Source: Apilactobacillus kunkeei
Lineage (GTDB): Bacteria; Bacillota; Bacilli; Lactobacillales; Lactobacillaceae
Length of the DNA: 59,409 nt
Assembly (NCBI RefSeq): GCF_001308195.1
Contig: NZ_JXDF01000007.1
Span: forward strand, 1-59,409
Direction: 5' to 3'
The notes under the pieces are model-generated. The model worked only from the letters and a program-made list of their open reading frames with translations, was not told the DNA's origin and searched no databases. This document shows, piece by piece, positions 2,267 through 59,325 of this stretch (position 1 is the stretch's first letter; each line of letters begins with the position of its first letter). The position numbers were made by a program, and so were the translations under genes.

Positions 2267-5200
2267 ATGCAATACAACAAGAAAAAATTCAATAAAATAA
2301 AAGATAAGAAAGTAATGAAGAAAGTCAAGAAACAATGGGTTGTAATGTCATTGTCGACTTTTGCTACAGTGGGTGGTCTTGCCTACACAATGACATTTAG
2401 TCATGTGGCACATGCTGATACGAATTCGGATGCTTTGAAGGCGGTTACTCAAACTAATTCAGCTTCAAGTGGTGGATCTAGCTACCAACAAGTAGCATCT
2501 AGTGCTACCAGTGTCAGTTCTGATGTTAACGCATCATACGCTAACCAAAGTGCCGTAAGTTTGAGTGTCGATTCTAACGTCGCTGCTAACAAAGCAATCG
2601 ATTCTGACGCACAATCTGGATTTAACAATGGATTAGGTGTGAACAGTGCGTATAATTCACAAGCTGCATCAAGTATTGCAGCTAGCCAAGCAGCTGCCCA
2701 ATCATCAGCAAATTCAGCTCAATCATCAAGCTCAGCACAATCGTCCAGTTCAACACAATCTTCAGGAAGTAGTTCGGCATCATCAAGTCAACCAACTTCA
2801 AGTTATAGCTCTGATTACACTAACGCATCAAGCCAAGCTGCAGCTTACAAGGCAGTAATTGATCGCGCTGGTTCAGATGCGTTTGCTGGAAACGGAAACC
2901 AAGTTTCTACTATCTCTGATGTAAATGAACAAAACTACTACAATGCTGCTTATAACGGTGCAATGACAGCACTAGCAGCTTATAATTTGGCGACAGCTAA
3001 TGAAGGAACTGGTACCCAGGATTATACTTCTTACCAACAAAATGTAAGTTCTAGCCAAAAACCTAACGATGCTTACAACTCGGCTATTGCCTATGAACAA
3101 CAATTGTTAGCTAAGTTTAACGGTAAAAACAATACAACAGTTAAGCTAAACCAAAACGGTCAGATTACAATTCCTAGCCAAAATGATAGTTCAATTACTT
3201 CATTTAATACTTATACACCAAATTCCGCTTTGTACCTTACTTACCAATACGGTGTTAACTATTTCTTAACCCAACAAGGAATTAAAGATGCTAAGGCTGG
3301 TAAGTGGACTGGAATTAGTAAGAATCAAGGGCTAGTTTACGATGCTAACCATCAATTAAGCTTCCCTGCCGATAATTACACACCAAGTGCTGATTCAACC
3401 AATGCGTATGATCAGGCTTATTTGGGTGCCCAACAAGCGATGAATGACCAATGGGATCCAGTCTATGACACCATTAATGGTGGTGGAGATGGAACTAATT
3501 GGGGATACGTATTAAGTCTTGAAACAAATTCCAACAACCTAAATTATATTGGCGGAACTAGCTACTATCGTGCTGGATACGACAGTGTTGCTCAAGAAAT
3601 CAACAATAATAAAACTGCGTTTGTTCATAATTCATGGCAATTCCAACGTGCATTGGCAGGAAATTACTATCCTACCTGGAAACTAAGTGACATTGTTAAC
3701 GGTAAATGGTCCGGTTATTCTGCATATAACGATGCTTGGGGAAAGACTGTTAATGCAACAAACGTTAAGTTAGTTAACGATATTGACTTCCAAGGTGCAC
3801 CATATACTGAATACTGGCCAACAATGTATCATCTAAAAAAGTTAGTCGTTGATGGTCAAAATCACCAAGCTGACTTCCACGGATGTTTGGACCAATTCTA
3901 TGCTGATTCTGGAGTTAATCCTATATTGATTATTCAAAACTTTCAAGCAGCATATTCATACAACTACTATGGATTCTTGAAGATTAACCAACCTGGTACC
4001 GTTGTTTACAACAACGTTAACTACGTCGGAGCTCAAATGCTTTCTGACTTCCCGGCCGGGGGTAACGATATTCGTTTCATGGGAAATATCAATGAAATTA
4101 ACGTTTCAAGTTACCAAACATCATTGAACACTGGGGTCCATCCAACAGAAGGAAACGGTAACCAAGAAAACATGGAAATCCAAAACCTTCTATTGTACCC
4201 AGGTACTCACTATTTCGGAACAGTTGCACCTGATTATGGTAATAACGTAATCAAGCTATCTGGTAGTTTGACTATGAATGATGGATCGCAAATGACATTG
4301 GTTCCTCGTGGGAACGGTGGTTACTACGCTCGTAATGGATCTAATTACGGAATCGTGGTTACCAATGGTGCCAACTTAAACATTAATAAAGGGGCAACCC
4401 TACAAGTCATTCCTGATAAGTGGAATGGTAGTGGCACTTTTGCTAATGGTATCTATACTTACGGAAATGTTAACGTTAATGGTGGGACTTTAGATATCGA
4501 AACTAATGCGCCTAGTTACTTTTACAATGCTGCTATGTATGTTGACCAAACAGGTCAAGTTAACATTTCTAATGGTGGTTTGGTAAAGGTTCAATCACAA
4601 AATCTTGGTAACACTTCTACTGGAAGTTACGGTATTTTGTACAACAACAACGGTCAAATTAACGTCAATAACCTTGGTAACTTGAGCGTTAGTGCTGATG
4701 GTTCAGGACAAGTTAACTTGATTGCCGGTCCTCTTAGCATCACTAACCCTGGTCAAAACAATATTACTTTGGACTTAACAGGTAACTCTAACGCCCAAAG
4801 TACATTATCAAACAACAAAATTGATGCGTACACTTCATTAGTTACTTACGGTAACCGTTCCGGTGCAGGTAACTTAAGTACAACTTTATACCCAAGTCAA
4901 ATCTTATACAGTTTCCATTTAAACAACAATAAGAATAGTTACGTTGATGCATCCGCAAACCCTGGTAGTTTCCAACAAGGTACTCCAAATTACCTTCAAA
5001 TTGCTACTGTTCCAGCGGTTTATTTCGTCGGACCTATGACTCCTGTGAAGAACCAAGATGGAACTTATTCACTTACTGGTTATGCGCAAGTCGGTGGCCA
5101 TAAAGAAAACGATAGCGAACCAATCTACATCCAAGCTGGATACGGAACTAATAATTCATACACTGGATTAACATACCTTCCAGGAAATATCCAAAATGCA

Positions 5201-8200
5201 ACCACCAGCAAGGATACTAATAAATACAGTCAAACATTGGCGGTTCCAAGTAATTACAACTATGAAATCATGAAGTACACCGTTCAAATGCCAAAAGACT
5301 ATGATCCAACTAAGAATCCATATGTTGGAATCTTACTTCGTTATGGTGTTGATGGTATTGATACCACTGCTCAAGTTCAAACAGGTCAATACGTATCATC
5401 TCAACATCGTTACGATTTGGACAAGAATGGTAACTTGATTGATGTTGGTCAACAAGTAATTACTTCTGGTAACTACAATGATATTAACAATGGGGTTGGT
5501 GACGCCTTAACCGACGTTTCTAACGGTAATAATAATCAACAAAACATTAATCAATACAAGATTAATCCTAACTATACTAGTGGATATAGCAGTGTTGTAG
5601 CTGGTTACAATGCCTTTAACAATGGTGCGCCGGATCCAACAACTAACCCAGCTTCAATGCCAAAAGAAACAGCATCAAACACTACCAACCAAAGTAGCGA
5701 TAACGTTGTTAATGATCCAGCCGCATATATTCAAGGTTACAACCAAGCTAGGTCTGATGCTGCCGGAACTAAAAAAGGGATTAATGACTTCATTAACGGG
5801 AACGCTCAAACAACTAACCCTAATGAAACCACTCAATACAACAACAACTACAACAATGCATACTACAATGCCCTTCAAGGATACAATGATAAGGGTAATG
5901 GAACTGTGGCTCCACTATCACAAAGTGTGTCATATTTACAAGGATTTAACGCACGTCAAAACTTTACCGACGGCCAAAACGCAGCATACAGTAATAGTGT
6001 AGATACAAATCGTGAACAAAATGATCCAGCTTATGCGGTAGGTGTAAATGCCTTTAATGACGCAAAGAACCAAGTATTGACAGGTTCACATACAGCGTCA
6101 GGTCAAGGTCAAATCTACACTGATGCATATAACCAAGCACTACAAAACTTAACTAACAATTATAATGATGGTTCTAATGCATTCTTGAACAACGGTACTA
6201 ATAACACTAATGAAAGCTCACCGGTAGCAACTCAGGTGGCTAGTCAAGGTTACCAAGATGCATTGGATGGATATAACGGAATAACTAACCATAATAACCA
6301 AAATCTACCTGGATATATTTTGGGACAATCCATTAAGTCAGGAGTTACTGATTTATTAAATGGTAATTCAGATAATGCCAACCACAGTAGTAACCAAGCC
6401 GGTTATGAAAAGGGTTACCAAGATGCTTTGTCAGCATTTACTAGTGGAGTTACCAGTGGTAATGCCACACCGTCAAATAATCAGACTAATGCATACAAAG
6501 ATGGACTAACAGCAGCTGCGAATGCAAATCAAGCGATTGCTAAAGCTGAAGCGGATTTGGAAAATAGTAATTTTGGCCAACTAGGCAATGATGACGTTAA
6601 CGATTCATCAGCTTACAAGACTGCTTACAATGCATACAAACAAGCATATGACGACATTAAGAATGGTCGTCCAAACAGTTCTGCTAACCAATCTGCAATT
6701 TATCAAGTTGTTTACAACAGTGCATTTAACAAAATTCAATCACAATACAATACTGGTGTATCTGACTTCTTGAAAAATAGTCAAGATACAAATAACAAGG
6801 CCTATGGATATACACAGGCTTATTCAGATGCGCAAAAAGCCTATAACGATTTTAATGACAGATTTAGTAAAAATGGCAGTAAAATAGACGGAATTAGCAA
6901 AATTACTTCAAATAGTCCATCTAGCGCATATCAACAAGCGTTTAACGCTCTATTGGATGCTAAACGTGGTGCCAGTGACGCTAAGAACCAACTAAGTAAT
7001 AACTATAATCGTCCGGCGGACTCAACCAACCCTGATTACATGGAAGGTTATAACGGTGTTCGTGCAGCGTATGCTGACGCATCATTAAATACGCCCTCTA
7101 CTGATTTAACTGGTAAGAGTCGCGAATACGTAGATGCATATAATGATGAAATAAAAGATGATAGTGCTACTTACAGCACAGCCAGTCAAGAATTTTTGGC
7201 TGGAAAAGATAATCCAACCGCTAAAGATCCAATTTCTATCCAGGCACTCCAAGATACTAAATATGGTTATCAAACTGGTTTATCAATCAGTGACGAAAGC
7301 CAATTAACTCCGGCTCAAAGAAACAATAAAGGATTTATGGCTGGATTTAATGCTGCCCAAGCAATTGCAGCTGGATATAAGAAAGCAGCAGACGCGGGTG
7401 CGGCAAACAATTACTCTGACAAGAGTTATGAAGATGCTTCAAAAAATCTAGATTCCAACTCTTCTGATTATCAAGTATATGAAGCGTATAAGGGTGCTAA
7501 GGACGGATTCAATAATAAGTCACAGGAATGGGATAACTTAGCTTACAAGCAAGCCTACCAAAAGGCACTAGCGCAAGCACAGGCACAATCTGAACAAGGC
7601 GCAAAGGATTACTTGCAGGGCCTTGCAAAACAATCTACTGATAGTCAATACAGCAATGGATATGATAATGCAAAGGCCGGATTTGCTAAATTCATTAGTG
7701 ACTATAGTTTCCGGTATCATAATTATCCACAATCATTAAATTTACCAACAAATCCAAAAACTGCTCCTGGATATCAAGATGGTTACGAAGCAGCTAGAAG
7801 TGCATATTCATACCTATATGGAAATACACTAAGTGATTTGAATCCTAATGATGCAGCTTCAATTGGTTATAACCAAGCATCTCAAGGTTACAATGACGCA
7901 ATTAATGATCCAAACGCTAATGCTCAAATTGCTTCTGATGATTCTAGCCATAGTGCCGCATATAAATTAGGTTACAACAATGTTATTACTCAAGTTATTC
8001 AAGGTTACAATAATGCTATTAGTGATCAAACTAAGGAATCAGATAACAATTCTGTCAGACCAAACGATGCTAATTATGACCAAGCCCAATCTTACTTGGG
8101 TGCAGTAGCTGGAATTAGAGCAGCTCAAGATGCCACTCAACCAAGTACAGCTGATTCTTCATACCCACTTTCTTACCAAAAATCTTATGCTAAGGCATAT

Positions 8201-11200
8201 CAATTATGGAAGAACAATTTGACTACGGGGGCTAATTCATTTGTAAATGGAGAAGCTAACGGTAATGGTTCATATAATGGACAAGGAACAAACGCAGGTA
8301 AGCAAGCAGATAAGACTGCCTTGAACGCTGGTTATAGTATCGCATTGAAAGGTTTTCAAGATGCTGTTAACGGTGCCGTTAAAAATGAACCAACTAACAC
8401 AACACTAGGTTCTGCTTATGATACCGGATATAACGCTTATCAGGATGCATTAGCAGGAATTAATGCCGCTAAGAAATCTAACTCCACAGATAAGATAAAT
8501 GTTGGTAATCCAACCCCTGATAAAGCATTTGTAGATGGATATAATGCATATATTCAAGCTAAAGTGGATGTGCCAAATGGTAAAAATGTAAATGATAGTT
8601 CTGCTGATGCTATGTACCAAACTTTATATCCTGTATTAAATCAACAGCTAGCTACTTCCTATCAAAGTGGTAGAGATGCTTATTTAAATGGATATGATGT
8701 GAACGCTACTACTAATAGCAGTGATCCTTTATTCGTTCAAGGATTTAACGACGCTAAACTAGGTGTTTCAGATGCGGTGAATGGTAATAGTAAGACTTCT
8801 AACAATGTTGCTTACACCTTCGCGTATGGACAATTCAAGTCAACAAGCTCATCCAAAGGTTACGTGAACGGGTATAACTTAGCAAAAACTACAACATCTA
8901 ATTCAACATTGACCGACCAAATCGGTGTTGATACCTTTAAAGGTGCAGGTGCGGGTTATACTGCAAGTTGGTCAAATGCACCATATAAAATTGATAGTAC
9001 CCAATCATTGTCATACAACATTGCATTCCAAAAAGCTTATGCTGAAGGACAAAGATTGCATGAACAAGGTGCTAATGAGTATCTTAGTGGTAAATCTGTT
9101 GCTTCAAGTAGTTCAAATGGATATCCAATTCAAGCTGAAAACGATGGTTTTACATCTGCAAAGAATGGATACCAATTTGGCCTAACTGGTGCAACCCCAA
9201 GTAACGATCAAAAGAACAATCCATCCTTTATGATGGGGTATAATGCTGCGATTGTTTCTATGGGTTCTTTGAATGGACTTGATGAAAATACAGCAAAATC
9301 TAAAGTCGTTAACACCGATGGTGCATATAGTGATGCAAATAGTAATCTTCATAATTATTACAGTGACACACAACAAGGATTTACCGATGGAACCAGCAAG
9401 ATACTAACAGATACAAGTAAATCTTATTCACCATCATATCTAACTGGGTACTATGCTGCTCGAGGAACTTCAGATTTTACAAATAATAAACAAAATACCA
9501 CTCAAAGTAATTTCTTTAATAACCTAAATGATGGAGCATCAGTGCAAATTGCCTACAATACTGGATACAACCAGGCTGTTAATGGTTTCAACGAAGCCGT
9601 TAACGGGGGTAGCTTAAATTCACCTACATTATCTGAAAGATATGGATTTAGCTCATACCAAAACAGTTCTCTTAAAACGCAAATAGATAATGCTGCTAAT
9701 AAAGCTAGATCCGATTTCTCAGGTTCCCCAGCAATGAATTTAGCTAATGCTAATCCGGCCAAAAACAATACTTCTGGATTACAATTAATTACTGCATATA
9801 CAAATGCTTACACTAATGCTGAAACAGCATATGTAAACGGGGTTAATGCATACTTGAATGGAACAGATGTCAATGCAACGGCTACACAGAATCTGGTTAA
9901 CGGATATGATTTCTATTACCAAGGTTTTATGGATGCTAAGAACGCATATACTCAAACGCTAACATCTGTAAACAACAATTCAGGAAGCAATAACTCTGGA
10001 AATAACAACAATACTTCTAACACATCAGCAGTTAACACTACATTGGCTTCCCTAATTCAAAGAGTAATCAAAACGAGTGCGTCATCATCAACTCAAATTC
10101 AATTACCAGCAAGTAATAATGATGGTAATAATTTAGGATTTAACCAAGCCAATGGTTTGATTAATGCATTTAAAGACTTGAAGACTAGTGGAACACTGGT
10201 TCCTCAAAGTAGTAGTGACGTTAACTATCAAACAGCTGCTACAGCAATGTTACAAGCTCAATCTGATCTGTTGACTAAGTCTCATACAGACTTAACAAAC
10301 AAAGGATTGCTATACAACAATGCTTACAAATTGGTATACCAATACTCACAAGATGAATACACTAACGGTCAAAATAGTGTATTGCAATCAACTCCGTTAG
10401 ATAACGATGGATTTGCCATTCAAGGGGCAAGTAATACCAGATCTGGTTTTGTTGATGCATTAAATGGCTTGAATAAAATTAATGGTGATAACCCTCAATA
10501 TTCAGCTGGTTATGATGCTGCTCAAACAATTAAGCAGGCCTATGCTGATACAATGAATAATCCAACACAAACTCAAAATTACAAGAATAGCGATGGATCA
10601 AATGACGATAATTCTAATAACGTTGAAGCAGCAGTTAAGCTTGCTTTAGCAGACTTTAAGAGTAATTCCACTAGATCTAATCAAGATCCTGCTATTTCAG
10701 CTAAATACGCAGCAGCTGCATATAATGCAGCGATGTCATCCATTCAAGATGCTGCGTTAAATGGTATGAATAATTATCTATTCAACCAACATAAACTAGA
10801 TAAGACATTCACCACTGTTGAACAACAAGGTTTCGATGGTGGATATCAAGATGCTCAAACTGGATTTGCTCTAGGATTGGATTCAAAAGCAACACTAGAT
10901 ACAACTAAGAGCCAATATTACCAAAATGGTTTCAATGAAGCTCGTCATGTCCTACAAGCGGTAACAGATGCGACTGCTGATGGTCCTAAAGGAATTAATA
11001 GTCCTAAGGTGATTGAAACAGCATACCAAGAAGCTTACCAAGCTACTTTGGATGCTCAAAATGCCATCAAAAATGGTAGCAATACTGATACTGTGACAGA
11101 TTCGGACCCTAATAATCCACATGATAATGTTTACAAAGAAGCTTACAAATTGGCCTTTGACAGTAACCAAGCATCATACATGAGTGGAGCTAAGTTATTT

Positions 11201-14200
11201 GCTCAAGGTGTAAGTTCTCCTAACCAACTTGATATGCAAACTAGTGGGTATAACAAGGCTAATGATGGTTACCATCAAGCTCAACAATATTTCGCTTCAT
11301 TGGATAGTTCCTTATCAATTAATCAAAAGATAGATGAATTAAATAATCAATTTAATGGTTTACCTGATATTGTGAAGACTAACAAAGCCTACACTGCCGG
11401 TTACCAATCATACATTGGTGCACTTAAGGGATATCAAGCAGCAATAGATAATGCCAATAATAGTGACGAAAAGAATAAATATGCAGCCACAGATAATGGT
11501 GATGAAGTCAGCTATGCAGAGACTCTAAGAGAAGGTGCTGCCTATAACGGGGCCGTTGATGCATTTAATGACTACAAGGCACATGATGTAGCCAGTGAAC
11601 CAAAACACAAGGATGACCCAACATACGTTGCCGCATACAACCAAGCAGCAACCGACGTTGCTAATAAGGTCCAAAGTGGAGCAGATTCATTCTTATCAAA
11701 CGCTAATTACACTATTAACGCAAACCCACAAGGTATCTTTGACCAAGCGCAAGCTAAGGGAGCAACAGATGCTTCAGATGGATTTAATGCTGATCAAACC
11801 CTTAGTCAAACAGATTTATCTGCTAAGTCAAAGGCATTCCAAGCTGGATATAACGCTAAGACTCAAGCATTAAACGGATTGGCAGCTTCTAGCGGTAACG
11901 ATAGACCAACTGATTCAACTGCCCAAGTGGCATATGATGCTGCAAAAGATGCTAGAGCGGCATTGGCTAACAATTCCGTTATTACTGATTTCTCAAACAA
12001 GAGTGAAGTCTACAAATTCATCTATGAAAGTGTAGTATCGGATTATCAAAAGGGTATGAACAAGTTCAAGGCCGCTGATAATTCTGCCAATGATTCAGAC
12101 GCAGCGACTGGATACAGTGATGAAAGTGATGGATACGCTGCTGGACTTGCTGCTACTGGTGACGTAAATCTAAGCAATAAGAGCGTTGGTTACATCGATG
12201 GTTTCAATCTTGGTAAAGCCTCCGCAATTGCCTACAATGCATCTCAAAATACATCCACTGACGCTAACTCAAACAACAAATACACAGCAGATACTAATGG
12301 TGTATCCGCGTTTGACGGTGCACAAGACGGTTACAAGGATGCAATTAGTGATAAACCACGTAACACAACATCAAGAGCTGCTAATGAAGCTAGTCAAAAG
12401 GCATATAACGATGCCTATGACAAGGCTTACCAAACAGCTAGAAATGAGATGCAATCAGGAATTGATGCATTTGCTAACTATGATGGTAGTGATGATTTAG
12501 ACGGCAATGGTGATGCTAATAACACCAACAAACCAACATCATCAGTTCTTCTAGAACAAGCAGCTATTGATAAGGGTTACTTGGATGCTAAATCAGGTTA
12601 CAAAGATGCTTTGAACTATGTAAAGGATCATCCAAATGATTCATCTAACGATAACGCTGGTAAGATTAGTCAACCTAGTCAAGCTTATGATAATGGTTAT
12701 CAATTAGGATTGGATGTAGCTCGTTCACTTGAATACACTAGAAGTCATGCGACTGCAACAACAGACAATAATGCAACCACTGATCAAGCTAAGTCAGCAT
12801 TCGACGGTGCTGTTAGAGGATTTGCTGATGGGCAAGATACTGCAACACAACATGTTCTTGATGCAAACAAGTCTGGTGCATACAAAAAGGCATACACAAT
12901 TGCCAATGTTGAAGCTGGTCAACAATACGACCAAGGTAAACAACTATTCTTAACTGGTGTCTTGAATAATCATTCTAACGATACTAATAATGCTGATGAT
13001 GTTGCCTTTAACCGTGGTTACAAAGAAACTTCTGATGGTTACACAGATGGAATGAAGATTCCACACATTCAAAATGGTAACTCAACTGGTTACTTAGCTG
13101 GTTACAATAAGGGAACTGCAATCTCTGATAGTTTCCAAAGTGCTCAAGATGGTAACCAAGAATACACAGGTAACGATCAAAGCGAAGGTGCATTTAGTCC
13201 AAGGGAAACATTTGATGCCGCTAAAGCTGGTTTTGATGATGCCAAGGCATTGAATAATCCAAAATCAAATGCTGACAAGACTATTTCATACCAAAACGCA
13301 TACAACCTTGCATATAACGAATACAAGGATGCAATCGCTAAGGGTTCACAACAATATTTCGATGGAAATGGTAAGGGAACCACTGATTCTAATAACCTCG
13401 TAGATCAAGCAACTGCGCGCGGTTTTGCAATTACTAACGATGGATTCAATAATGGCTACACCAGCGCATCAAGTAATTCACCACATACACCTAGTGATTA
13501 CACAGCTGATATTTACACTCGTGGATACAATGCCGGAACAGGTGCAAGTGCGTTTGTATATGCAAAGTCATACGATAGTAGTAATGCAGATCAAACTACT
13601 GGTTATCAAGAAGCTAAAGACGGATTTAATTTCGCCGCTGCTGGTAATGATGCTAGTCAAATTCCTGCCGCTAAAGCTGGACAAGCTGCATTTATGAAGG
13701 GATTCAATGTCTACACCCAATACAAGAACGGGATTGAAGATGGTTCCATCAAGGATGGAGAAAAGCAATCAACCGATGCTGATTATGGGGATGCTTACCA
13801 AGCGACCCAAGCTGCTCGTCAACAATTCATGCATTATTCAAATGTTGATAACACTGCACATACTCCAATCTATCAATCAATCTTCGATGTTAAAGGTAAG
13901 GAATTCTTCGATCAATACGAATCAGGTAAGAATGCTTACCTATCAGGAAGCAATAATTCCGGAACAGATTTCCACGCCCAAGGATATCAAGACGCAATTG
14001 ATGGTTTCCAAGCTGGATTTAGTAGTAACGGTCAATCGCAAACTCAAGAAACTAACAATGTCGGCTACACCGAATCATATAAAGCTGGTCAATCAGCATA
14101 CAAGGGATACCTTGCTGCTTTAGCTGACAAGACCAACAACACCAGCGGTGATTCATCATCTTATGCAACCGATGGATTTAATGGTGCTGTTCAAGCATTA

Positions 14201-18985: not shown

Positions 18986-19013
18986 GTTGATTTAACTAAA
19001 TTGAATCAAAAAA

Positions 19014-19044
19014 GACACCGATCATTTGATCGGTGTCTTTTTTT
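19014..19044 (+). terminator. Intrinsic terminator of giant gene 1
   Basis: GACACCGATC (19014-19023) pairs perfectly with GATCGGTGTC (19028-19037) around a 4-nt loop, followed by seven T. The A-run before the stem (19008-19013) would make it work in both directions. It starts 28 nt after the stop codon. Confidence 0.9.
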
Positions 19045-19144
19045 GTAAAAGATAATAAACACACTAATATAATTTTTAAATAAAATTAATATTCTTAATT
19101 AAAGGTTAAAAAGTTTTAAAAAAATATTAAGAGTGGTATCATGA

Positions 19145-19173
19145 TTGAGACGATAGGTCCAATATTTTATATA
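19145..19173 (+). promoter_or_regulatory. Predicted promoter of giant gene 2
   Basis: TTGAGA (19145-19150), a 17-bp spacer and TATATA (19168-19173) give a good sigma-70-type promoter, with transcription starting near 19180. It lies downstream of the in-frame ATG at 19141. A transcript from here cannot use that ATG, which supports the TTG start at 19198. Confidence 0.5.
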
Positions 19174-19184
19174 GATTGCACTTT

Positions 19185-19200
19185 AGGGGATGATATATTG
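19185..19200 (+). promoter_or_regulatory. Ribosome site and TTG start of giant gene 2
   Basis: AGGGG (19185-19189) precedes TTG (19198-19200) by 8 nt, the same spacing as before giant genes 1 and 3. The codons after the TTG read QYNKNKFNK, matching the N-termini QYNKKKFNK and QYNKNQFIK of the paralogues, which both start with ATG. Confidence 0.85.
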
Positions 19201-34038: not shown

Positions 34039-34051
34039 TTGCTAATAAAAA

Positions 34052-34082: not shown

Positions 34083-34149
34083 ATTTATAACTGTAAAAAA
34101 AATAGTGAAAAAATTAAGAAAATTTTAAGAATAACATTATTGAGTACTT

Positions 34150-34187: not shown

Positions 34188-34245
34188 TAGAGTAATTAGA
34201 CACTTTGTATAGTTATATAAAATCGTGACAAAAGGGGCGATATGT

Positions 34246-49200: not shown

Positions 49201-52200
49201 GCTTATAAGGATGCTGCTAACGCTGTTTCATCCAAGCCAGATAATCCAGCAGGACTACCAGCAGGAAAGCCTGTTTCATATCAAGACGTTTACAACAAGG
49301 CTGTCTCAGCTCTACAAACTCAATACCAAAATGGTGCTAACCAATTTGGTTCTCAATACTCCAATGGTAAGAGTACAGCTGATGAAACTTCAGTAAATTC
49401 AGATCAAGCCAAACAACTATTGCAACAAGGATTTGCGGAAGCTCAAGCTGGTTATCAAGAAGCCATTAAAGCAGCTACAAATCCAGATGGTACTTTGAAC
49501 CTTAACGTTCAAGCAAGTGCTAATGATAGTAGTGCAAATAAGATTGGATTTAATCAAGCAATAACAGCGTTGACCGCGGCACAAAATGTGGCTAATGGTG
49601 AAATTCAACAATCACAAACTGGTCCAATGTACAATACAGCTTTTGAAGCAGCTATCGCTGCCAAACAAGCATTGCATAATAATCCAGATGCTGAAAATAC
49701 ACTTTCACCTAATGATCCAAATAATAATAACCAAGTGTACAAAGATGCATACAGCGCTGCAGTTACACTAATTAAACAACATTATGTAACTGGATTTAAT
49801 GACTTTATGAGTGGTAAGTCTCTACCAACTGGTGGTACTCAAGCAGATATTGATGGTTACAATAATGCTAAGGCTGCTTATTCCGCAGCATTACAACAAC
49901 AACCATTTAGTGGATTGACTTATCAAGATAGTAAGAGTCAACAAGCATTTGAGGCTGGTCAAAAAGTTGTTAATGGATATAAACATGCATTTAATAATGC
50001 AGACTTAGATTCTCAAAACGATTCTAATGACGCATACCAAGCAACTAAAGATGCCTATAGTGATGCTAATGAAAATACTACTAGATCGTTAGATGGTAAA
50101 TCATTAGATTATAAGACTGCGTACAATTTTGCACTTAAGAAGGCCAATGATGCTAGAAATGATGGGGCTACTCAATTTGTATCTAAAGAAACTACTGATT
50201 TTGGAAGTCAGACATTGGATGATGTTGCTCGAAAGAATGGTGCTACAGCTGCACAACAAGGTGTTAAAGATGCTAATGATAATATACCAACTAATGGATC
50301 AACTGATACCGCTTATCTAATCGGATATAATTCCAAGTCCGGTGCTACTGATGGTGCTGAAGATGCTAAGTCAGGTAATGCGGTTAAGAGTTCTGATACT
50401 TTGCAGAATGAAGACAAAGATCAAAACTATATTAATGCTTACACAGACGGTTTTAATGGAACTCAGGCAGGGTATACTGATGGCCAGGATGATAAAGCAC
50501 AAGCAGATTTGAGTAAGCAAAGCCAAGCATACAAGGACGCATATAATAATGCTTACAATGATGCTAAGACTATTGCTAATCAAGGTGCATTGGATCAACT
50601 TGCTGGAAAGAATAACCCAAGTGGTTACAACACTTTACAAAAAGCTGCTTACAATACAGGTCAAACCAATGCTCAAAATGCTTATGCATGGGCCCATGAC
50701 GACGTTAATAACAAGAACAAGTTTATCAATAACTCCGATGCTTCTGACATCTTTAACGGTGCTCAAGCCGGATTCTCTGATGGAAAACTGGGTAATGTTG
50801 CTAATGTTACAGCTCAAACTGCAGCTTACCAAGCAGCTTATAACAAGGCAAGAAGTCAAGCTGGAGCTCAAACAGTTCAAGCAATTAAAGATTTCCAATC
50901 TGTATATGACACAACTTATCAAGCAGATAAAGAAAAGAATGATGCTGAATCAGTGGCATATACAAATGCATATGACCAAATTGATGCTGGATTTAATGCA
51001 CAAATTGGTCAATCTACTATGGTTGATTCTAATGGTAAGGATTCATCATATAAAGCTGGTATTCGTATGGCTAAGGATGTCCAATTAGGTATTTCAGATG
51101 CATCTAACAACCCAAGTCGTACAGATTATGTGGGTACAGATTCTCAAAAGGCTGCTTATGCAGCCACTCGAGATGGGTATCACGATGGTAGTTTCAATAC
51201 CACTACAACCATGAGTTCATCATTAGCTCCACAAAAGTATGCTTACGATTATGCATACTCACAAGCTAAAGGTAATGGATTACAATCTGCAATTAAGGGT
51301 GCCAACGTTTATATCCAAGCTGATGCTCAAGTTCCAGCTGTTAGTGCAGATGGCATAGCACAACAAAAAGGTTATAATGATGCGCAATCTGGATATCAAG
51401 CATACTTGGATAATCCAAGTGGTAGTCTTGATAATAGTCAAACGCAAGCATATAAATTAGGTTATGCTGCCGCTAAAGAATCGAGACAAGGTATTACAAC
51501 ATTTAATGGTTTAACTAGTCCAAATTCGGCAACTACCGATCCAAATACTAGTGCAACTGCTAATGAACAAGATGGTTTCAACGGTACCCGTGATGGTTAT
51601 TTTGCTGGAATCGCACGTTTGCCTAAGCAAGTATTTGATACTAGTTCTAGCCAGTCCCGTGCTTATCAAGATGCATATAATGCATCATATGATGCAGCAA
51701 GAAGTAAAGCTCAGTCTGGTGCCATTGATCAATTGAGCAGTGCAGATAATGTACAAACTAGTTGGGTTCAAGCTGATCAAAACGCATATGCTTATGGACA
51801 ACAAATTGCATCTAAAGCGTACAATGATGCAAACGGTAATCCTAACAACACTAACTACACAACTGTCAATGATGCCAGCGATGCATTTAGTGGTGCGAAT
51901 GCCGGATTTGCGGATGGTACATTAGGAAACAACAATTATCCAAGTGATACATCTGCTAAACCAGTATACTGGGCAGCTTATAAGAAGGCTCAACAAGCTG
52001 CAATTAATGCGGCAATTAAGGGTGTTCAACAATTTGCAGCCGGTAATTCTCAACCTGATAGTTCAGGTCAAAGTGATCAAGTATCTAACGCTGAAAACTA
52101 TGGATTTAATCAAGCTCAATCTGGATACCAAGATTTCTTTAATGATGGAACAGCTAATAGTACAAATGTTTCATATATGTCAGGATATAACTTAGCTAAT

Positions 52201-58200: not shown

Positions 58201-59289
58201 CCAGCATTCGTCAATGCTTACAACAATGGTTACAACAAGGCTGCCAGCGTTATTCCAGCTAAAGAAGATTACCTATACAATGGTAAGAAGACTGACTTCG
58301 ACAGCAGAACCGACAAGAGCTCGTATGACCAAGCATACAAGCAAACTGGGGATGGTTTTGCTGATGGAATTAAGGATAACGGCATCAAGAACCCTGATTC
58401 TGGTTACTACGTAAATGGTTACAACGCTGCCAAGATTGTGATTGCCGCAATGAAGAAGGCTAAGACCAACGCTAAGTTGACTAACCAAGAACTAAAGGCT
58501 CTAGGTGGAGTAACTTACGTCAATGCCTTTAACGGCTACCGTCAAGGTGTTAAGGCAGCTCAAGCAAGTGCTCGTACCCACAAGAAGTTAACTGCTAAGC
58601 AATTGGCTGCTAAGGGTGAAGTATTCGCATACACTTACAAACAAGGATTCAAGATTGAAACAGCTCATCAAACTAAGATTGGTAAGAAGTCCGGAAGTGC
58701 CCGCGCAATCAAGCGTAGTCCAATTCCAATGAGTATTACCAAGAACCACTCAGCAGCATATGCTAAGGCATATATTGCAGAGTACAAACGTCAATTCAAG
58801 GCTCACATGCCAAGATATATTTACAACGTTAAGACTATCTATAGTCACAGAAGAACTAAGTTCTCCAAGGGTTCTAGAATCATCAAGTACAAGTATTCAA
58901 GAAGATACAACGCCCACGTATTCAAGGTTATCGGTATCAAGTACTACAAGAACCGTGTACCAAGATATGTTGTATCCGGTGGTCGTCTAGTTACTGCTGG
59001 TCAAATGGTCCAAGATGCATATTACCGTGGTAATACAGATAAGGCCGCTAATAACAGCAACAACAAGAAGACTAAGAATAAGCCAATGGTATTCCGTGTA
59101 ATTAAACCTACCGGTGCATTGATCCATACAAGTAAGAAATATACTAACCACAATGTAATCAGAAGAGTTCGTCAAGGACAGTTGATTCACGTTGTTAAGG
59201 TTGTGAAATACTATGGATTAACAAGACTATACCTAGGACATAACAGATACTTTACTTCAAACAAGACCTTTGTTAAGAAAGTAAGATAG
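34246..59289 (+). CDS. Giant secreted repeat protein 3, beta-helix adhesin-like
   Basis: At 8347 residues this is one of the longer bacterial proteins. A GTG at 34225 extends the frame by seven codons, but that would translate the ribosome site itself, and the paralogues start at MQYN, so I use ATG 34246. The signal peptide (1-50) has KKVKKQW and an AKA/KAA cleavage region. An Asn/Gln/Ser-rich stretch follows, then the GTGTQ module (about 160), QQGYADAEAGKW (about 310), a beta-helix (about 432-782), a beta-sandwich-like module (about 846-972) and a stalk (about 986-8005). The stalk includes a 780-residue super-repeat and a 16-copy 105-residue array. A basic segment and two DUF5776-like repeats (8188-8347), with an extra Lys/Asn insert between them, close it. 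No frameshift is seen over 25 kb. Likely a very long stalked adhesin; the ligand is unknown. Confidence 0.85.
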   Translation: MQYNKNQFIKSNDKKIMKKVKKQWVVVSIATLSVLGASAYGMNSVSAKAADNPQQVAQSSNNISNNSGDQSAQNQANSNNDQQSDDNQLSYRDGDSSSSSTVDNTDNSAQFSQQISQGANDAYNKKGDNSINYSGQAKDYYQAGYAGAISAMNAYNTDTKGQGTGTQDTTYYGNTPNRPQGYTGNNSEGAKGDSGGVNNTTNQDTGSGNNTSSTNLPTDGTPINYGTPSNPNQGGADDTKSGYASSQKYQDTLLGRLNSVNNHSVQFTNGFTINVPAANDVLITNDRNKYAQKAGLATAFDQGVNYALTQQGYADAEAGKWTGVRGDGTTTSYDFYDNGSTDLHTSKNPYDLAYIGAKDAINAQYDGSNNYLKNKLPKAITSSQYGSAYVTGYNDVVSNINQGVAYVTNSNQFIAVMTNGKASYSTGGSTPGNVTTVKLAADVDFTGAVFVGESNNTYTGNNGPFTVDGQFHMLDMHGVSYKITNASQINLQNFQALYGYNYFGPFAPVNSSQTLHYKNLNYIGSQLLSATSNDTYFAGNVNVLVPQDLVTPTYYSPFTGSNGVAVEGGGNQENLEIKNFILEPNANYFGTVARSIGATIINADGNVTLGQGSKMTLIPRGQNNGNSTFDGGDWGIYFSGGGQLNVNKDATLNIIPSYSQYGGSNFAGGGISTAAPTTINVNGGAINYIVDSMQPNIYNQVLDFKSRTVVNVLNGGLIQIKLTNNPGQAPSYNGIINFAAGGGMNVGNRGNLIVETDGTGQKMTPFFGTLNINNVGASHVVLAKNPNTGSFSNNAISAYTVSVDNKLFYYFNLPSGSINYTGIDSTGKSVSGKITDPNRLEIGDVPSVSFVGPLNKTMNPNGTATVTAYAKVAKYDPSNGPIYVGVYAGGDSSIVSVPSKLINNSNKNSTITNSNAPADPNQYSMTQALPSNYQDGQVVRIEFTVPKSLLDNQFTGIRLTYGISSVTQTTDGNNYINVTEGYNKGSNGKVQNDSNGTMQTDQGNVAQMNQGIVDGINDSINGNGNAKAAQSFNVQTSPDYLGGYDSAVAGYKAFDASNPDANYTQLDSYNNSSNPAAFIRGYQEASYLAGVQDARNNKLQKFAQIKNDSYRKAVFDYFKASNDKEGKVTFDPKTDLNAAGFPAVGIQIGIADRKAIDAFKQDEKAGVSFTIGSFNGDGWNSIKNDPNAAAAYLSAVIGFNNAINMPDSTAGNPDANSNYPETYAFLAGKSLVNGAKSKTLPSSQASADIPIPDAGVAGYYSAQAGFAAVQAAVAAVSGKDVTKIKEAQYSDPSQLSGTTQKAPDGKTSIDQMVYKQAKYGAYQALLGKPETGLNQLQLAGYVNTIGPIASANGISDFKNGLPQAYAQNDNSIRATAYRNAYNQAQSAFTKGQQDGLAAVLANANVSHTASDSAANQSGEASSYKIGYQAAVDGYKDGSAGTNPSTTNKDNSQPASYNSGYQYGMNEGRRTAGANDYVAKSINSSVQTSDAKYADGIAAATQGFNDAYNQAQVIQNPTTTSTDHSYVIGFNAGLQKYAADVQAQKDAQGYIDGANAFINNKQLTVPSGQTAAYQNNYSTGFQSAQAGLAMALNNLGSSNQDLDIEDYGNYTADVSGATAIGYYAFNAPNTGAKQAFLVLDAQGQNISSQNNPTVAYGAAVDAFYGSLANLQQSTYNATNDTTAPLYIALRQFIDNRGSKEYSDGYNAYLKGNATPTNGFGIAGYNDASDGFNQKSAQNGANVNSAGYKAGLTQYQNFQAGVSAANADASTEPSNVKNNQDADDAFNATIQGYSDGAYNPKSQQQTTTLTNKSKIYKLAYNQALAIGQQLGNQAYNDLVYGKVTASTTPQDKGGQTLAYYAVVNAIITGFQDGLGGTDKNYSPQYENGYQLGQITYQSAINTAASLSTASRVNNDKNLPTNTYASNDANNAVIDAYNDMLRGTGQNQSDLDKDSLVYNTFYNILFSQLQTEYNNGQNDFNNQTTYTGSFKYDHTPAYSEGYLNRAMGFQAGITGATSDTDMANYKNQGFITNGPAFQAGLAVGSAQAKTFQNANNQSSPATTASDDVTQAVFDAFNDVKNNGVTKEPDGDKSSLYKKTYYIAAQDAVTSYTNGAVGYVNGTARTDTNNPNNLDGFAFANGWDKARLGLLTAFKSSNAKPSENAQSTGYIYGQSIYAGVMSPSEPSDKSTNIYKGYVAAQAALVQAKKDFDDSTQVDINNLTIPAGYDNGQTEAYKAVYQGAYYQYKQQPIPTNLDNDLSENAYKLSRESNQGNIGASDFVKGKAQQSDNSEYVDGYNIAKAGYKDGLINGTSQQNQMESGKSNAYKTGYTAGANNHDSYVKALNDENSDGSQTYAGAKQALDDYNAATSDAAKNAIVDKQIGSGINAEYANAYNTALGQARSSATQGANDFVSSQGHSTLAFKETQKIYDQAYKDAQIGFQAGLTNPNAVGANASQTVGIQAAQSYAAGYQQAVADAKNNTFNPSAHPELVGYKDTIQAIIDANKNQVNKQSTSPIYAIVASQQLGINDALAQLSQSTSNAKKLGPTDAVNNGQSISDSSYKTGYNAVLDGYLDGKSSTQGSNANFNASSENSNPAYISGYDQGKVIGRREIGATDFLNGMPIGASDNNYEDGYGDAQTGYADGISGSSNANISKEYNRGYEVGQQAKADYQSAESKASPSASDSNSDTYKGVADAIASVKQNGSVSTLISVDSTHTAAYVMAYNKAVEDANAASEAGLADFKAGLVANPNSQSTVANQAVYDQAYNDATAGFKQGLSANPSSEPTNQNAKAGYDMAKAVQKGYQDAMNDFLSGKRDINANTEAGYQDTMGALVDAQTNTRNVTNTSPLYAVTYSQEVGANDGINAVKQDPNTSSDTSVPASRQNSVNSNAYQSGYKGAVDGYKDGAASTKGDSTNKNANQTTEGDNAIYQNAYNQGNASGRQQAGANDYTKGTVDQQVKQSDNNYATGVNTAASGFAEGKQAGQTSSSVQPTNTDKPFVTGFNQGVATASGSNAAVAPGNKDDSGLTGDAKNAYYGTKDGYLQGANAGNTITNKPSDNKGADTQSNSYTTARQDAYNDAVAKANLGAQNAFNNNKPSAYATWNPEQQMAYDTGVQNAQNGYNEAQANINATSPSNNGTNMVNTFNGAKAGFADGTIGATRNISNQPAEYQASYNKARAAAILAAQQGVADFASDSGNKQQGSTDALGNAESHGYQTASQGYSDEDSGSTNSNNDPSYIAGIKLSTDKTQGVSDATNSPNQGSSYNGRDAAQKAAYAATVSGYKDGANAVTDNNQPTDSTQAKVYADAYRDAYKQGRLQSSLGARAYTRNRPVNADDALSAEAQQIGYSKAQVGFSEGLKGQTNSDNPSYVTGNDAAKSAQTGLSEAEAGNKNSQNSVADTASYADAQTAYNDASTALASNPDDVSVSQTNNTPAYQYAYNQAKQDLNAQYNAGKQQFLNKYALGTSMADTSSAKSNQGINAINQGFNEAVTGFKDGMNGANTPTLSTSAAAAGFAEGQQALNAVNEVTGGQTTPDSGNNDSAYQKAFAAAVAAKTAFDMNPDILSTVPSTDANANNPVYSQAYIATVYTLSTAYSNGVQQLLSGQPLPANSSTEYTAGFNDANNGFDNALNGPNYPDTNAYGYVTSGAQKGLAVGQRALSGYNAAMQNNTTPTADSVQNDANSGATAGYKDAISGSKQTDAQLAQASLAYRKSYAKAYDDVKNAVLTGSTNFVRGQTPDKSNSQYSKIMEGYNYASQGFEYAKSHQSKDTTGLTDDQKNNSSYMRGFYAYVDAVIGYNDAQNATSDTAPYNAAYKEQQRGYEGAIDGYRDGKNGTTQYTNNEVFPSSRVAYDLAYQDAKAKATQGAIDAMSTNPTTDTSQFKAKQLDAYQTGKNNAVTGYNQAKSDLSASNINPYTASTDSYDTFNGAHDGFIAGISGNGTIPAGSNAVYSAAYSKAQSEASANVMNGVADFAKNADDTNKQNQTDATNQALYNGYNNASEGYAAQLGGNADSNNNNVAYTAGVQMAVDRANGISAVIANPSATASGSPAQVAAFNATVAGYRDVINGTNSGQTPSSSDAPQSKVYGDSYDQAISTATASANNGAQAFVQNTGQPASGSDYNSIATLAGYKQAKSGHDDFVANKSAQSSTAAYMNGYNAAKSAASGLADAQNATNSGQGTAQDANAYGDAQIAYTDAFNYVTAHPQDTSSQSFTNKSTAYNDSYNAAKTYLQGQYVAGQDQFVNQYANGNGSASLSGVASTQAQALVNQGFNDMLSGYNESINGNNLNGTASSSDNPVQKAGFNEGQLVLKAANQVANGNTTGDAGNTDAIYQKALAAANAAKIAFDANPDVSDVVVASDSNASVVPYVNAYKSAVDQMKSNYQLGGSQYLSGQTASSTATSELIQGYSDAKSGYTSAMSGSLIAANSTSGVQNGFNQGKLVYAGYQNAMNSQGSAGSQNQHQIDGYDGANAGVEAVMTAIGSVQTDDQLRTAGKSFDYIQAYDKAVNEAQNSRSIGASEYLAGQSKPTGTTQIEQSKASGFTDANNGHDEAAKGTTKDQLTPSQMANKEFMLGFNSYSDSMSGYNTYEQGGNLDSSATQGQKDSFDGAQDGYLAGPNGGSIPDMTGKSPAYIDAYKKAFEKAKEIANQGAQDAMTGQNNSQSNWSAPQKAAYDAGKQNATNAYNAIKGNVKANNKYDASTDASEAFEGAKAGFSAGTIGSNDDSILNGKSEVFKDAYKKAKAEALNAVNQGQADFQAGNINNAPSGKDALSVARANAFNQMQKGFNDANANPQTIDANNHDASYLAGKNMSDQVKQGIADANTNGSITDYGKDGSKTPAQVAAYNAAVNGYYASVNGYKDGANGDKEHSNPINPAQAAAYNYVYQLAWNNGGQQAMTGANNYENGNARSSNEGIQSIAQNIGYDDAKRGHDDFLNNRQPTGNVTAAYTLGRDMAKAAQDGLTDAINGQNNANASSQSGAYNDAQQAYKDAANAVSSKPDNPAGLPAGKPVSYQDVYNKAVSALQTQYQNGANQFGSQYSNGKSTADETSVNSDQAKQLLQQGFAEAQAGYQEAIKAATNPDGTLNLNVQASANDSSANKIGFNQAITALTAAQNVANGEIQQSQTGPMYNTAFEAAIAAKQALHNNPDAENTLSPNDPNNNNQVYKDAYSAAVTLIKQHYVTGFNDFMSGKSLPTGGTQADIDGYNNAKAAYSAALQQQPFSGLTYQDSKSQQAFEAGQKVVNGYKHAFNNADLDSQNDSNDAYQATKDAYSDANENTTRSLDGKSLDYKTAYNFALKKANDARNDGATQFVSKETTDFGSQTLDDVARKNGATAAQQGVKDANDNIPTNGSTDTAYLIGYNSKSGATDGAEDAKSGNAVKSSDTLQNEDKDQNYINAYTDGFNGTQAGYTDGQDDKAQADLSKQSQAYKDAYNNAYNDAKTIANQGALDQLAGKNNPSGYNTLQKAAYNTGQTNAQNAYAWAHDDVNNKNKFINNSDASDIFNGAQAGFSDGKLGNVANVTAQTAAYQAAYNKARSQAGAQTVQAIKDFQSVYDTTYQADKEKNDAESVAYTNAYDQIDAGFNAQIGQSTMVDSNGKDSSYKAGIRMAKDVQLGISDASNNPSRTDYVGTDSQKAAYAATRDGYHDGSFNTTTTMSSSLAPQKYAYDYAYSQAKGNGLQSAIKGANVYIQADAQVPAVSADGIAQQKGYNDAQSGYQAYLDNPSGSLDNSQTQAYKLGYAAAKESRQGITTFNGLTSPNSATTDPNTSATANEQDGFNGTRDGYFAGIARLPKQVFDTSSSQSRAYQDAYNASYDAARSKAQSGAIDQLSSADNVQTSWVQADQNAYAYGQQIASKAYNDANGNPNNTNYTTVNDASDAFSGANAGFADGTLGNNNYPSDTSAKPVYWAAYKKAQQAAINAAIKGVQQFAAGNSQPDSSGQSDQVSNAENYGFNQAQSGYQDFFNDGTANSTNVSYMSGYNLANDQQNGMNDAKSLNPTYDDSKAQYSKDAYKAAFDGTKNGFVDGSQGNTAHINPENSGQSLIYNSTYGLAITSGKSWSQQGVSGFINGSPDDLNNNVQSNAYHQGFVDASHAKRDAFANYPGTSSSGNTNYQQVYAGYHDAIDDVVNGRAQKQITSLDMYYPAYVNGYIYATKLATQGAKDFLTTGTQSNQASAAENAVYQKGYQDASNAYTAAVTDPNQTEPASYVAGGNADNTFNGAALAFNEIAVGSTDLGKNGNTNPIFIAAYNKALSEAKTYSDKGAIEFGNLTGINDVVNTVHNQIAFSNALVSGYITAQSAYAEAQANLNENHSTDSTYDQTYQGATAAFKAVIDGNESDLHAKDNKSAVFSAIYDRALSHGIAQSKKGAIAFAKDKKQSANDTANAAMYNKGYTDAQSAYASAQTNPNQAAQHTNNTNVDNAYNGAAAAFNDVAKDTPNAHRDNDSAVYKAVYDKAIVEAQQNALAGANARLTGVNLNDGIKNMSTASAQSAYITGFQDADKGYVAAQNDMTQASAHGTTSNVDSSYRGAAAAFNDVVNNTINAGKNADSSSVYQNAYNMALSEAVAHANDGAQAYPKGHVLTDDLKNLPNDSAKRAYTTGFKDAKNAYAAATTNPADTTHTSQSNFDETFRGTVDAYKAVVSHNSSDAGKASDNNNAYTAAYDKAFAEATQFAQTGAIDFGKNVDATLGRTQFGNNQAAKTAYTTGYNDAKVSYAKAQANPSDQGNHTSQSNADEAYKGAAAAFNDVTNNQAGKNATDGNPVYASTYSRALNEGQTIASKGAQTAPLGTDAVNQALAIYKNNPAAQKMFNTGVSNANAAYAAARINPNNSIDHTSTSDYDEAYKGAAAGFNDVASDQFNSQFANDTNPVYQNAYTKAANEAIAYANRGAILGNTGKQISDGLDGSTDQAVINAVTSGYNDSYTGYVAAIQDPSKNFNHTSNSNIDKSYNGAAAAFNDIAGNNGKASRSISSDSVYTTAYDKAYAVGLHYQNQGAADAANNVDEQTGINALNGYQGLIDVYDRGYKDSGDGYKLAQQNRNDQANHTSDSNSDVSYNGAAAGFTDTINGEVGKHQNDNQAPTYQNAYNRAVKEAQSQIHQATLDFNNNLPQDTQAQQISAGSDKDAYVTGYNNASDVYKSVQDSGENDGKHTSDSINDEQYRGAMNAFTDVINGTPGANASTDSVAVSEKENTSDVYTSAYAKALSEATRDALNGATNFISPNAAGNAPTANGKLKAYDKGASDAQGAYELAQDDRTQGSIHSTNSNFDVVYTNAIAGFNDAIDNPLASAKEGNDLATLTYNKALAQAKQSALNGVLAFNNDDQDAALAKETKPSDRDAFNVGYNQAQSGFTAAEINYLDAAHHDTNSYADQVYTNAAKAFKDVNNRNGQVKDNAANDVAGSAYNKAFNEAFTIANNGADDSVKGVAQATNVAQYAGKKALADAYNAGYDDATKAYADAENDHSKANDHTSDSNYDRVYRGAALGFGDIINHQPGQNAKVDSNKAFVDAYNRASQQAFEKAHDGAIDANGPKQARQLNINADKQAYQVGFNDATNGYSEAQGNPDDKSKADETTNAGLAYAGAAAAFNDVADGKPGEHGQTIADLVYQNAYNKALTEGKANANSGATAFGLGHTLSDDTKQFASSGAKVKDYTKGYNDAQAAFAAAQSDASQVDQHRSGSDYDEVYSGAANAFNDVSNHTVGQHRNDSNNPAYVAAYDKALTSGQSNTQDGALTYLTDSQDYDRKMDSFATQAEKSSFTTGFNDAKKGYELAQQNPMLQSHIDQNDLDDSYRGAAAAFNDVKNGNAGQHAKSEDNQIYQKAYDKALAEAMNSFTDGANEFNDNKPNSASGVDANSLDHNKGYQDAKAQYENVLVNGDDNLPDNANPAQKIGYQKAKSVVAGIIDATSGNKQQSDDPNYVLGYNSAQAALRDGQAFAQANGKLDNVNEIPVPDGLDPDAYRQVFAGAYEGYKTGAGLQPKKPSQNNPAFVNAYNNGYNKAASVIPAKEDYLYNGKKTDFDSRTDKSSYDQAYKQTGDGFADGIKDNGIKNPDSGYYVNGYNAAKIVIAAMKKAKTNAKLTNQELKALGGVTYVNAFNGYRQGVKAAQASARTHKKLTAKQLAAKGEVFAYTYKQGFKIETAHQTKIGKKSGSARAIKRSPIPMSITKNHSAAYAKAYIAEYKRQFKAHMPRYIYNVKTIYSHRRTKFSKGSRIIKYKYSRRYNAHVFKVIGIKYYKNRVPRYVVSGGRLVTAGQMVQDAYYRGNTDKAANNSNNKKTKNKPMVFRVIKPTGALIHTSKKYTNHNVIRRVRQGQLIHVVKVVKYYGLTRLYLGHNRYFTSNKTFVKKVR
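35540..36590 (+). other. Beta-helix adhesive domain of giant protein 3
   Basis: Opens with VKLAADVDFTG and FTVDGQFH, has YIGSQLLSA and NYFGTVA, then strand turns LNVNKDATLNIIP, INVNGGAINYI, VVNVLNGG and MNVGNRGNLIVE. Order and spacing match giant proteins 1 and 2, so the domain was present in the common ancestor. Confidence 0.65.
43455..51970 (+). repeat. About 2.35-kb super-repeat in the stalk of giant protein 3
   Basis: The anchor block [FG]NGAKAGFADGTIG and its variants lies at 43681, 46024, 48370, 50761 and 51895, that is 2343, 2346, 2391 and 1134 nt apart (781, 782, 797 and 378 residues). A second anchor, GKQQFLNKYALG/GQDQFVNQYANG/GANQFGSQYSNG, recurs in step near 44599, 46954 and 49334, each followed by a similar order of sub-repeats (an ANP/NNPD block, then a [YF]LSG/FMSG mark). 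Each long unit holds several YxxGY sub-repeats. The last unit is about half length. Copies are diverged but co-linear. Confidence 0.8.
52798..57780 (+). repeat. 16-copy array of a 105-residue repeat in giant protein 3
   Basis: Sixteen successive units with a period of 312-321 nt. Each contains HTSxSNxD followed by YxGAAAAFNDV, then a Gly/Asn/Asp loop, YxxAYxKAxxEA, xxGAxxF and a GYxDAxxAYxxAQ helix. Anchors include 53521, 53833, 54145, 54466, 54784, 55099, 55417 and 55732; the last is near 57621. The His-Thr-Ser-x-Ser-x2-Asp segment is the best-kept part. The array lies just before the basic C-terminal region, so it would be the stalk section nearest the wall. It is not seen in giant proteins 1 and 2. 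Confidence 0.88.
58807..59286 (+). other. C-terminal pair of DUF5776/SLAP-like repeats, giant protein 3
   Basis: Begins MPRYIYNVKT and shares YYKNRVPRY, VIKPTG and TSNKTFV with its paralogues. It differs by an extra Asn/Lys-rich insert of about 20 residues (59027-59090) between the two repeats. Basic; wall attachment is inferred. Confidence 0.65.
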
Positions 59290-59320: not shown

Positions 59321-59325
59321 GAACT

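Follow-up and report, generated by a model that had tools for sequence, protein, structure and literature searches.

Three giant genes standing in tandem fill nearly all of a 59,409-nucleotide contig (the window; it is the whole of contig C7 in a 1.56-Mb assembly of 30 contigs) and raise the question of what their products are, how such long proteins came about and what they do for the cell that makes them. By sequence comparison, they are members of the published Apilactobacillus Giant family, and their kind is already known: Giant0 to Giant5 of A. kunkeei and relatives have been described (PMC12863079), with an earlier description in PMC4494060. The locus shares with the published Giants the gene order, the downstream neighbours, the signal peptide, the solenoid, the sandwich, the repeat stalk and the DUF5776 end, and has orthologs in A. 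kunkeei, A. nanyangensis, A. waqarii and A. zhangqiuensis. It is particular in carrying a Giant0 gene in the first slot, which is reported in a few strains (PMC12863079), in the head of its Giant2-slot protein, which is far from those of relatives, and in having its Giant3 terminator interrupted by an insertion sequence (IS). An earlier note, made from the window alone, had rightly linked the genes to the giant clusters of honeybee-associated Apilactobacillus and considered their function not established, a view to which the literature now adds an adhesin reading (PMC12863079). Here, we examine the structure, descent and possible function of these proteins, and conclude that they are probably adhesin arms held at the cell wall.

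The giant gene cluster and its break at a contig end

Three plus-strand frames run without internal stops from 2267 to 18985 (gene A), 19141 to 34038 (gene B) and 34225 to 59289 (gene C), with listed lengths of 5572, 4965 and 8354 residues. All five giants of this genome (two lie on contig C8, as described below), and likewise nearly all giants read in eight relatives, start with the motif (M/L)(Q/K)YNK; the start of gene B is therefore most likely TTG 19198 rather than ATG 19141, and that of gene C ATG 34246 rather than GTG 34225. The stretch upstream of TTG 19198, AGGGGATGATA, is near-identical in relatives. From the revised starts the proteins have 5572 (A), about 4946 (B, 19198-34038) and 8347 residues (C, 34246-59289), and open frame and homology mark A as the first gene of the cluster, of Giant0 type, B as the occupant of the Giant2 slot and C as Giant3. 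Long frames of the giant kind stand in the same order in relatives, and the dN/dS of the giants is 0.13-0.38 in the four ortholog pairs measured, which argues that the frames are neither chance nor the product of frameshifts. The tandem of three giant paralogs is borne out by these open frames and by the homology of their heads and C-termini.

Each gene had been credited with a terminator of its own, which holds for A, followed by a near-symmetrical hairpin at 19008-19043 (listed on the minus strand by the terminator scan), and for B, followed by a plus-strand terminator at 34047-34080. It does not hold for C: the scan and a comparison with contig C8 place its plus-strand hairpin at 59299-59319, with the T-run severed by the IS. 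A second hairpin near the end of C (59326-59363) lies inside the IS.

The last 90 bases of the window (59320-59409, plus strand) are the left end of this IS with the start of its first frame, as comparison with contig C8 and a search of the assembly indicate, and lie within the hairpin terminator of C. Contig C8 opens with the right end of the IS, followed by GGTC and seven T and then by two more giants, of 5647 (fourth) and 3130 residues (fifth). GGT stands on both flanks, at the end of C7 and the start of C8, as expected of a 3-bp duplication. The uninterrupted hairpin, GACCTAGC...GCTAGGTC plus T-run, is found at the same place in six of the seven relatives with a Giant3 gene, the seventh (G001) having a different hairpin there. 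Forty bases of the IS end, with up to three mismatches, occur six times in the assembly, each time within a base of a contig end. Reads do not join C7 and C8; we place them side by side on the strength of the IS ends, the GGT on both flanks and the order of the giant genes in relatives, and the cluster very probably comprises five giant genes. The three frames of the first reading thus stand as part of a longer row that the assembly cut at the IS. Judged by their relatives, the five are Giant0, Giant2, Giant3, Giant4 and Giant5; together they occupy 82,941 bases (about 83 kb), or 5.3% of the assembly. We take the element to be IS3-like. In two A. kunkeei strains, IS3 elements are reported from the interval that separates giant3 and giant4 (PMC12863079), and this gap may therefore be a repeated target.

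At the left end of the window, beside gene A, hydrolase-like and tyrosine-phosphatase-like genes occupy the minus strand (120-1861), a region where three 600-base steps give 93-96% identity to A. waqarii. Promoter scans of the window gave no clear excess, and a tRNA search found none. A scan upstream of gene C detected a plus-strand direct repeat, ATTAAG-N5-TTTAAG (34113-34129), that resembles a CiaR box (PMC3091779). Before gene A stands a variant, TTTTAA-N5-TTTAAG, with TATAAT 10 bases on. The best score for TTTAAG-N5-TTTAAG reaches at least 11 of 12 in 13 of 43 giant upstream regions at spacing 5, and in none to seven regions at fifteen other spacings (seven at spacing 4, four at spacing 14); the same 13 regions, and not the other 30, have a single-shuffle p of at most 0.05. 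These 43 regions are largely orthologs rather than independent cases (one further region was too short and was left out), and the genome as a whole holds no excess of the repeat (7 forward and 6 reverse, against 4 and 8 for the control). We treat the putative CiaR-like boxes as a lead only.

Downstream of the giants on C8, family searches identify two group 1 glycosyltransferase genes after Giant5 (C8 27009-30172, equivalent to L030 10010-13173, minus strand) and then RlmD (TIGR00479, 407 bits, cut-off 184). The best NCBIfam matches of both glycosyltransferases are SdgA and SdgB (187-244 bits against a strict cut-off of 800), the O-glycosyltransferases of Ser-Asp repeat adhesins; a weaker match is GtfA of the accessory Sec system (82 and 172 bits, cut-off 575). 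One of the two passes the Pfam cut-off for Asp1 (28.0 against 26) but fails that of NCBIfam (56 against 136), and this protein has a clear glycosyltransferase domain. Perhaps the giants are glycosylated by these two neighbours. The same downstream genes are published for A. kunkeei (PMC12863079).

Head and C-terminal modules

The heads of the three proteins can be aligned in every pair: A 193-1175 with B 422-1454 (30% identity), A 270-1161 with C 250-1092 (33%) and B 596-1446 with C 303-1096 (32%), in the numbering of the open frames. An AlphaFold2 model of C residues 360-1189, computed from seven sequences and of moderate quality (mean pLDDT 62), predicts a beta-solenoid at about residues 404-844 (35455-36777, plus strand) and a beta-sandwich at about residues 845-1004 (36778-37257, plus strand). 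Alignment with gene C, with borders taken from its model, places the plus-strand solenoid of A at approximately 3623-4984 and its sandwich at approximately 4985-5452, and the two together in B at approximately 21235-23127. A Foldseek search of the C head model against 350,542 PDB chains returned 407 matches at E<=10. The two at E<=0.001 were both the Limosilactobacillus reuteri serine-rich repeat protein (SRRP), 5NXK and 5NY0 (E 1.0e-4 and 1.9e-4), at 12-13% identity over the Foldseek alignment. At the level of the model, this match repeats a published result with the present sequence; the ligand residues of SRRP are not conserved in the giants (PMC12863079). Searching PDB sequences with profiles of the head and of the anchor gave nothing at E<=0.1. 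Within the genome, the head profile has three matches, A, B and C, and does not match the Giant4 gene on C8; Giant4 has a solenoid according to PMC12863079. A, B and C, and likewise the Giant0-3 genes of relatives, retain the solenoid head, which is under purifying selection (w 0.08-0.39).

C-terminal alignments give 36.5-37.5% identity in all three pairs, and family searches find two plus-strand DUF5776 matches at the very end of each protein, five of the six above the family cut-off: 18545-18970 in A, 33622-34020 in B and 58807-59274 in C, where the first falls below it. The last 250 residues carry a net charge of +41 to +53 in A-C (+52 in A, +53 in C), and of +61 and +16 in the two giants on C8. 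In paralog alignment, then, the N- and C-terminal modules, including the solenoid/sandwich region and the DUF5776 pair, are homologous in all three pairs, and identities of 30-33% in the heads and 36-37.5% in the C-termini support the ancient gene duplication that had been proposed. A structural model of the C-terminus reached a pLDDT of 44, too poor for a fold search; DUF5776 is treated as SH3-like in PMC11299179. None of five LPxTG variants is present in the last 120 residues of the giants, and the eight Gram_pos_anchor matches of the genome lie on other contigs. A GH70 glucansucrase and a DUF1542 protein of the same genome likewise terminate in DUF5776, and the domain thus goes with exported proteins.

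The DUF1542 protein (L032 1-7059, open at the contig start) has 21 DUF1542 stretches and two DUF5776 domains. Three GH70 glucansucrase genes lie side by side (L033 4184-17742) with KxYKxGKxW signal peptides above cut-off; one ends in DUF5776, and a second has a DUF5776 match in the genome-wide contig search only. A DUF5776 match at C25:8781-8981 scores 31.8 bits in the contig search and is absent from the domain listing of its frame.

The N-terminus of gene A (about residues 1-50; 2267-2416, plus strand; cleavage point placed by eye) resembles a KxYKxGKxW signal peptide, and the model for that peptide scores 13.9-16.9 bits in all five giants, below its cut-off of 18. The genome has a single SecA match, of the general type (1101 bits, cut-off 800; secA2 917 against a cut-off of 930), and as far as tested we reject the accessory Sec route. 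Giants have been detected in extracellular fractions of A. kunkeei, free in the supernatant, according to PMC10496945; transmembrane segments are given for three giants in that paper and for none in PMC12863079.

Stalk growth and mosaic descent

Between head and anchor, motif, profile and segment searches delimit a plus-strand stalk of degenerate repeats with the motif [YF]xx[GA][YF]xx[GA] at 5453-17896 in A, and motif and profile searches place the plus-strand stalk of C at approximately 37258-58260. The stalks carry a charge of -3.1 to -4.1 per 100 residues and contain 10.1% (A), 6.6% (B) and 8.8% (C) Ser; helices appear at the stalk start in the moderate model of C (pLDDT 62) and in the poor C-terminal model (pLDDT 44). 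One stalk segment of A searched against the rest of A gave weak self-matches only (27-29%). A segment search of C revealed three plus-strand blocks of about 780 residues (residues about 3201-3985, 3993-4755 and 4768-5550; 43846-50895), the second and third 36% and 32% identical to the first, and A. kunkeei Giant1 has four such blocks, 33-36% identical to the first of C. Shorter RADAR repeats are reported in PMC12863079, and blocks of about 780 residues were not found in its Results and Discussion.

The three stalks had been taken to have grown independently after the duplication. Gene A fits this view, as Giant3 profile segments match its stalk weakly and off the diagonal; one longer match joins A 4402-5131 to a C block (28%). 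Gene B fits it less well: in searches with profile segments, C 1601-2800 matches B 1528-2925 at 45-77 bits, with the order roughly preserved, and C 6001-8000 matches B 3673-4610 (up to 62 bits), and the last 500 residues or so are common to both (B 4445-4963 with C 7825-8353, 37.5%). For C and A. kunkeei Giant1, independent growth is contradicted. The two run diagonally at both ends (C 101-1899, 36%; C 6522-7952, 31%) and block by block in the middle, so that much of the growth of C would precede their split. A shorter paralog in G003 (5314 residues) aligns collinearly with C over residues 44-3390 and 7545-8347, which puts their length difference in the middle of the stalk.

Ortholog lengths point the same way. 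Seven full-length Giant3 proteins measure 8286-8352 residues, a variation below 1% (that of G011, cut at a contig end, was left out), and, in the alignment used, a gap of at least 20 residues occurs in none of their 21 pairs, at identities down to 53.3%, nor in any of the six pairs among four Giant1 proteins of 7522-7549 residues; the growth of both is therefore old. Giant0 pairs have a few large gaps, up to 90 residues. Seven of eight Giant4 proteins fall within 5633-5663 residues and one has 5842, and Giant5 spans 2941-3214. In the Giant2 slot, where the proteins compared are partly different paralogs, gaps reach several hundred residues, and growth would not be old there, unlike in Giant1 and Giant3. 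Comparison of orthologs gave no sign of indel compensation beyond chance: for most pairs, net length change stays inside about two standard deviations of a random walk, the exceptions being the short G005_2 and some pairs of the Giant2 slot and of Giant5. The one conspicuous feature is that Giant1 and Giant3 have no large gaps.

Comparison with relatives indicates that the cluster has several origins. N-terminal queries of 1150 residues match gene A to gene 1 of A. nanyangensis (94.6%; 70% to gene 1 of G003 and 60% to that of G001), gene C to gene 3 of A. kunkeei (91.3%), and the fourth and fifth giants to genes 4 (95%) and 5 (80%) of the latter. Gene B is 60% identical to gene 3 of G003; against gene 2 of A. 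kunkeei, A. waqarii and A. zhangqiuensis it reaches 45-46%. In 600-base steps, A is 77-95% identical to A. nanyangensis, and of the 42 steps of C, 33 are at least 90% identical to A. kunkeei, some patches lying closer to G005. For B, the first step gives 80% identity to A. waqarii, no long match to the head exceeds about 77%, and the later stalk reaches 80-95% with A. kunkeei, A. zhangqiuensis or A. waqarii; later stalk and anchor are nearer to A. kunkeei and A. zhangqiuensis, and the head is far from relatives. SecA DNA is 98% identical to A. kunkeei (G004) and A. waqarii (G013), and 96% to A. nanyangensis. These identities mark the cluster as a mosaic, in agreement with the recombination reported for it (PMC12863079). 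Module by module, B is 48.8% identical to A. kunkeei gene 2 in the head and 75.7% in the stalk, C is equally close to A. kunkeei in both (93.6%; 90.5-94.5%), and A is closer to A. nanyangensis in the head (96.0%) than in the stalk (86.4%). Head swap as a general rule is unsupported, a far head on a nearer stalk being found in B only. Head, stalk and foot look, in these alignments, like separable modules with different histories.

The head extends beyond these species. Its profile matches 14 of 16 Apilactobacillus genomes and, in a family sample with up to three candidates scored per genome, 36 of 301 genomes at 1e-10, in 12 of 40 genera; many of the weak matches in the sample extend over a portion of the profile and belong to frames of 1000-2000 codons. 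In two genomes of genus g32, the head occurs in at least six frames, of 3899 to 13,630 codons among the frames listed. We take this genus to be Nicoliella. The description in PMC11349052 fits as well. Of 13 long g32 frames read, nine match the anchor profile (77-96 bits); two of the other four are cut by the end of the stretch, and two stop short and are followed directly by an anchor-bearing frame. Four g32 frames, of 5207 to 10,557 codons, carry both head and anchor. In signal peptide, head and anchor these tandem giants are of one kind with A, B and C, but in the six middles measured Ala+Ser makes up 49-62%, and the Tyr/Gly motif, which occurs 8-12 times per 1000 residues in A, B and C, is all but missing. 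The longest unbroken middle in a frame with both ends has 9,007 residues, and one in a frame that stops short has 12,080. Megaproteins have been reported in Nicoliella, and called specific for it, in PMC11349052, and weak solenoid matches in that genus are mentioned in PMC12863079; the link of head and anchor is therefore partly in print. On G046:C2 (L084-L090), tandem giant frames extend over 140 kb. A 13,630-codon frame among them overlaps the next one, which has 3068 codons and lies in a different phase, and another giant frame is split by a single stop; such broken frames would be pseudogenes or sequencing errors.

Possible functions of the giants

We regard the five giants as probable adhesin arms, presumably exported by Sec and held at the wall by DUF5776. 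The KxYKxGKxW-like signal peptide would direct export through the general Sec pathway, and the basic C-terminal pair of SH3-like DUF5776 domains would hold the protein loosely to the anionic cell wall. The long stalk would carry the beta-solenoid head outwards (in A, B and C, and in Giant4 according to PMC12863079), its length presumably serving reach, and the two downstream glycosyltransferases may modify the protein. The ligand of the head would be a glycan, most likely of plant, pollen or exopolysaccharide, or of the surface of a host or partner cell; no binding experiment appears in the papers cited here. With paralogs that differ in head and length, a cell would show several grips at different reach.

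Alternatively, the giants could form a biofilm or aggregation scaffold, mainly binding Apilactobacillus cells to one another or to their own alpha-glucan through a homotypic or glucan-binding head. We hold this to be possible, at well under even chances: the three GH70 enzymes with Choline_bind_3 repeats, one of them also bearing DUF5776, and the giants free in the supernatant (PMC10496945) would suit it, yet paralog heads as different as 30-33% suit varied ligands better than one self-ligand, and the B head is far from that of A. kunkeei gene 2 where the stalk is nearer (48.8 vs 75.7%). Less likely still is a substitute surface layer, in which a dense brush shields the cell from phage, lysozyme and antimicrobial peptides and the heads are secondary. 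Its attraction is the 5.3% genome share and the very long negative stalks (-3.1 to -4.1 per 100 residues), but a shield would not need a head, and the solenoid has been retained by A, B and C as well as by relatives' Giant0-3 (w 0.08-0.39). That the giants belong to the SRRP family itself is most improbable and stands only as a shared fold, since the best fold match of the head (the C model, at 12-13% identity), the KxYKxGKxW-like signal peptide and neighbouring glycosyltransferases resembling SdgA/SdgB and, more weakly, GtfA, one of which passes the Pfam Asp1 cut-off, are set against the finding of no second SecA, no LPxTG, no Ser-rich stalk (Ser only 6.6-10.1%), and an Asp1 match that lies in a clear glycosyltransferase protein and under the NCBIfam cut-off.

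Within the reading of the giants as wall-held adhesin arms, we tentatively raise a further proposal, itself rather doubtful: head and basic anchor might form a conserved chassis used across several genera of the Lactobacillaceae, with the arms of graded length and the stalk as an exchangeable spacer, built of Tyr/Gly repeats in Apilactobacillus and of Ala/Ser-rich sequence, up to about 9,000 residues long, in the related genus g32. The stalk length held fixed in Giant1 and Giant3 would then make reach itself the selected trait.

These results replace a three-gene reading by the known layout of five genes, and illustrate how part of such a cluster can go unseen when a contig ends in an IS. They tie the Nicoliella-like megaproteins to the same head and anchor as the Apilactobacillus giants, and point out two adhesin-type glycosyltransferases as neighbours of the cluster. 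The comparison separates three modules with different histories, places much of the stalk growth of C before its split from Giant1, and finds Giant3 length nearly unchanged at 53-54% identity. Selection on the reach of an adhesin becomes directly testable.
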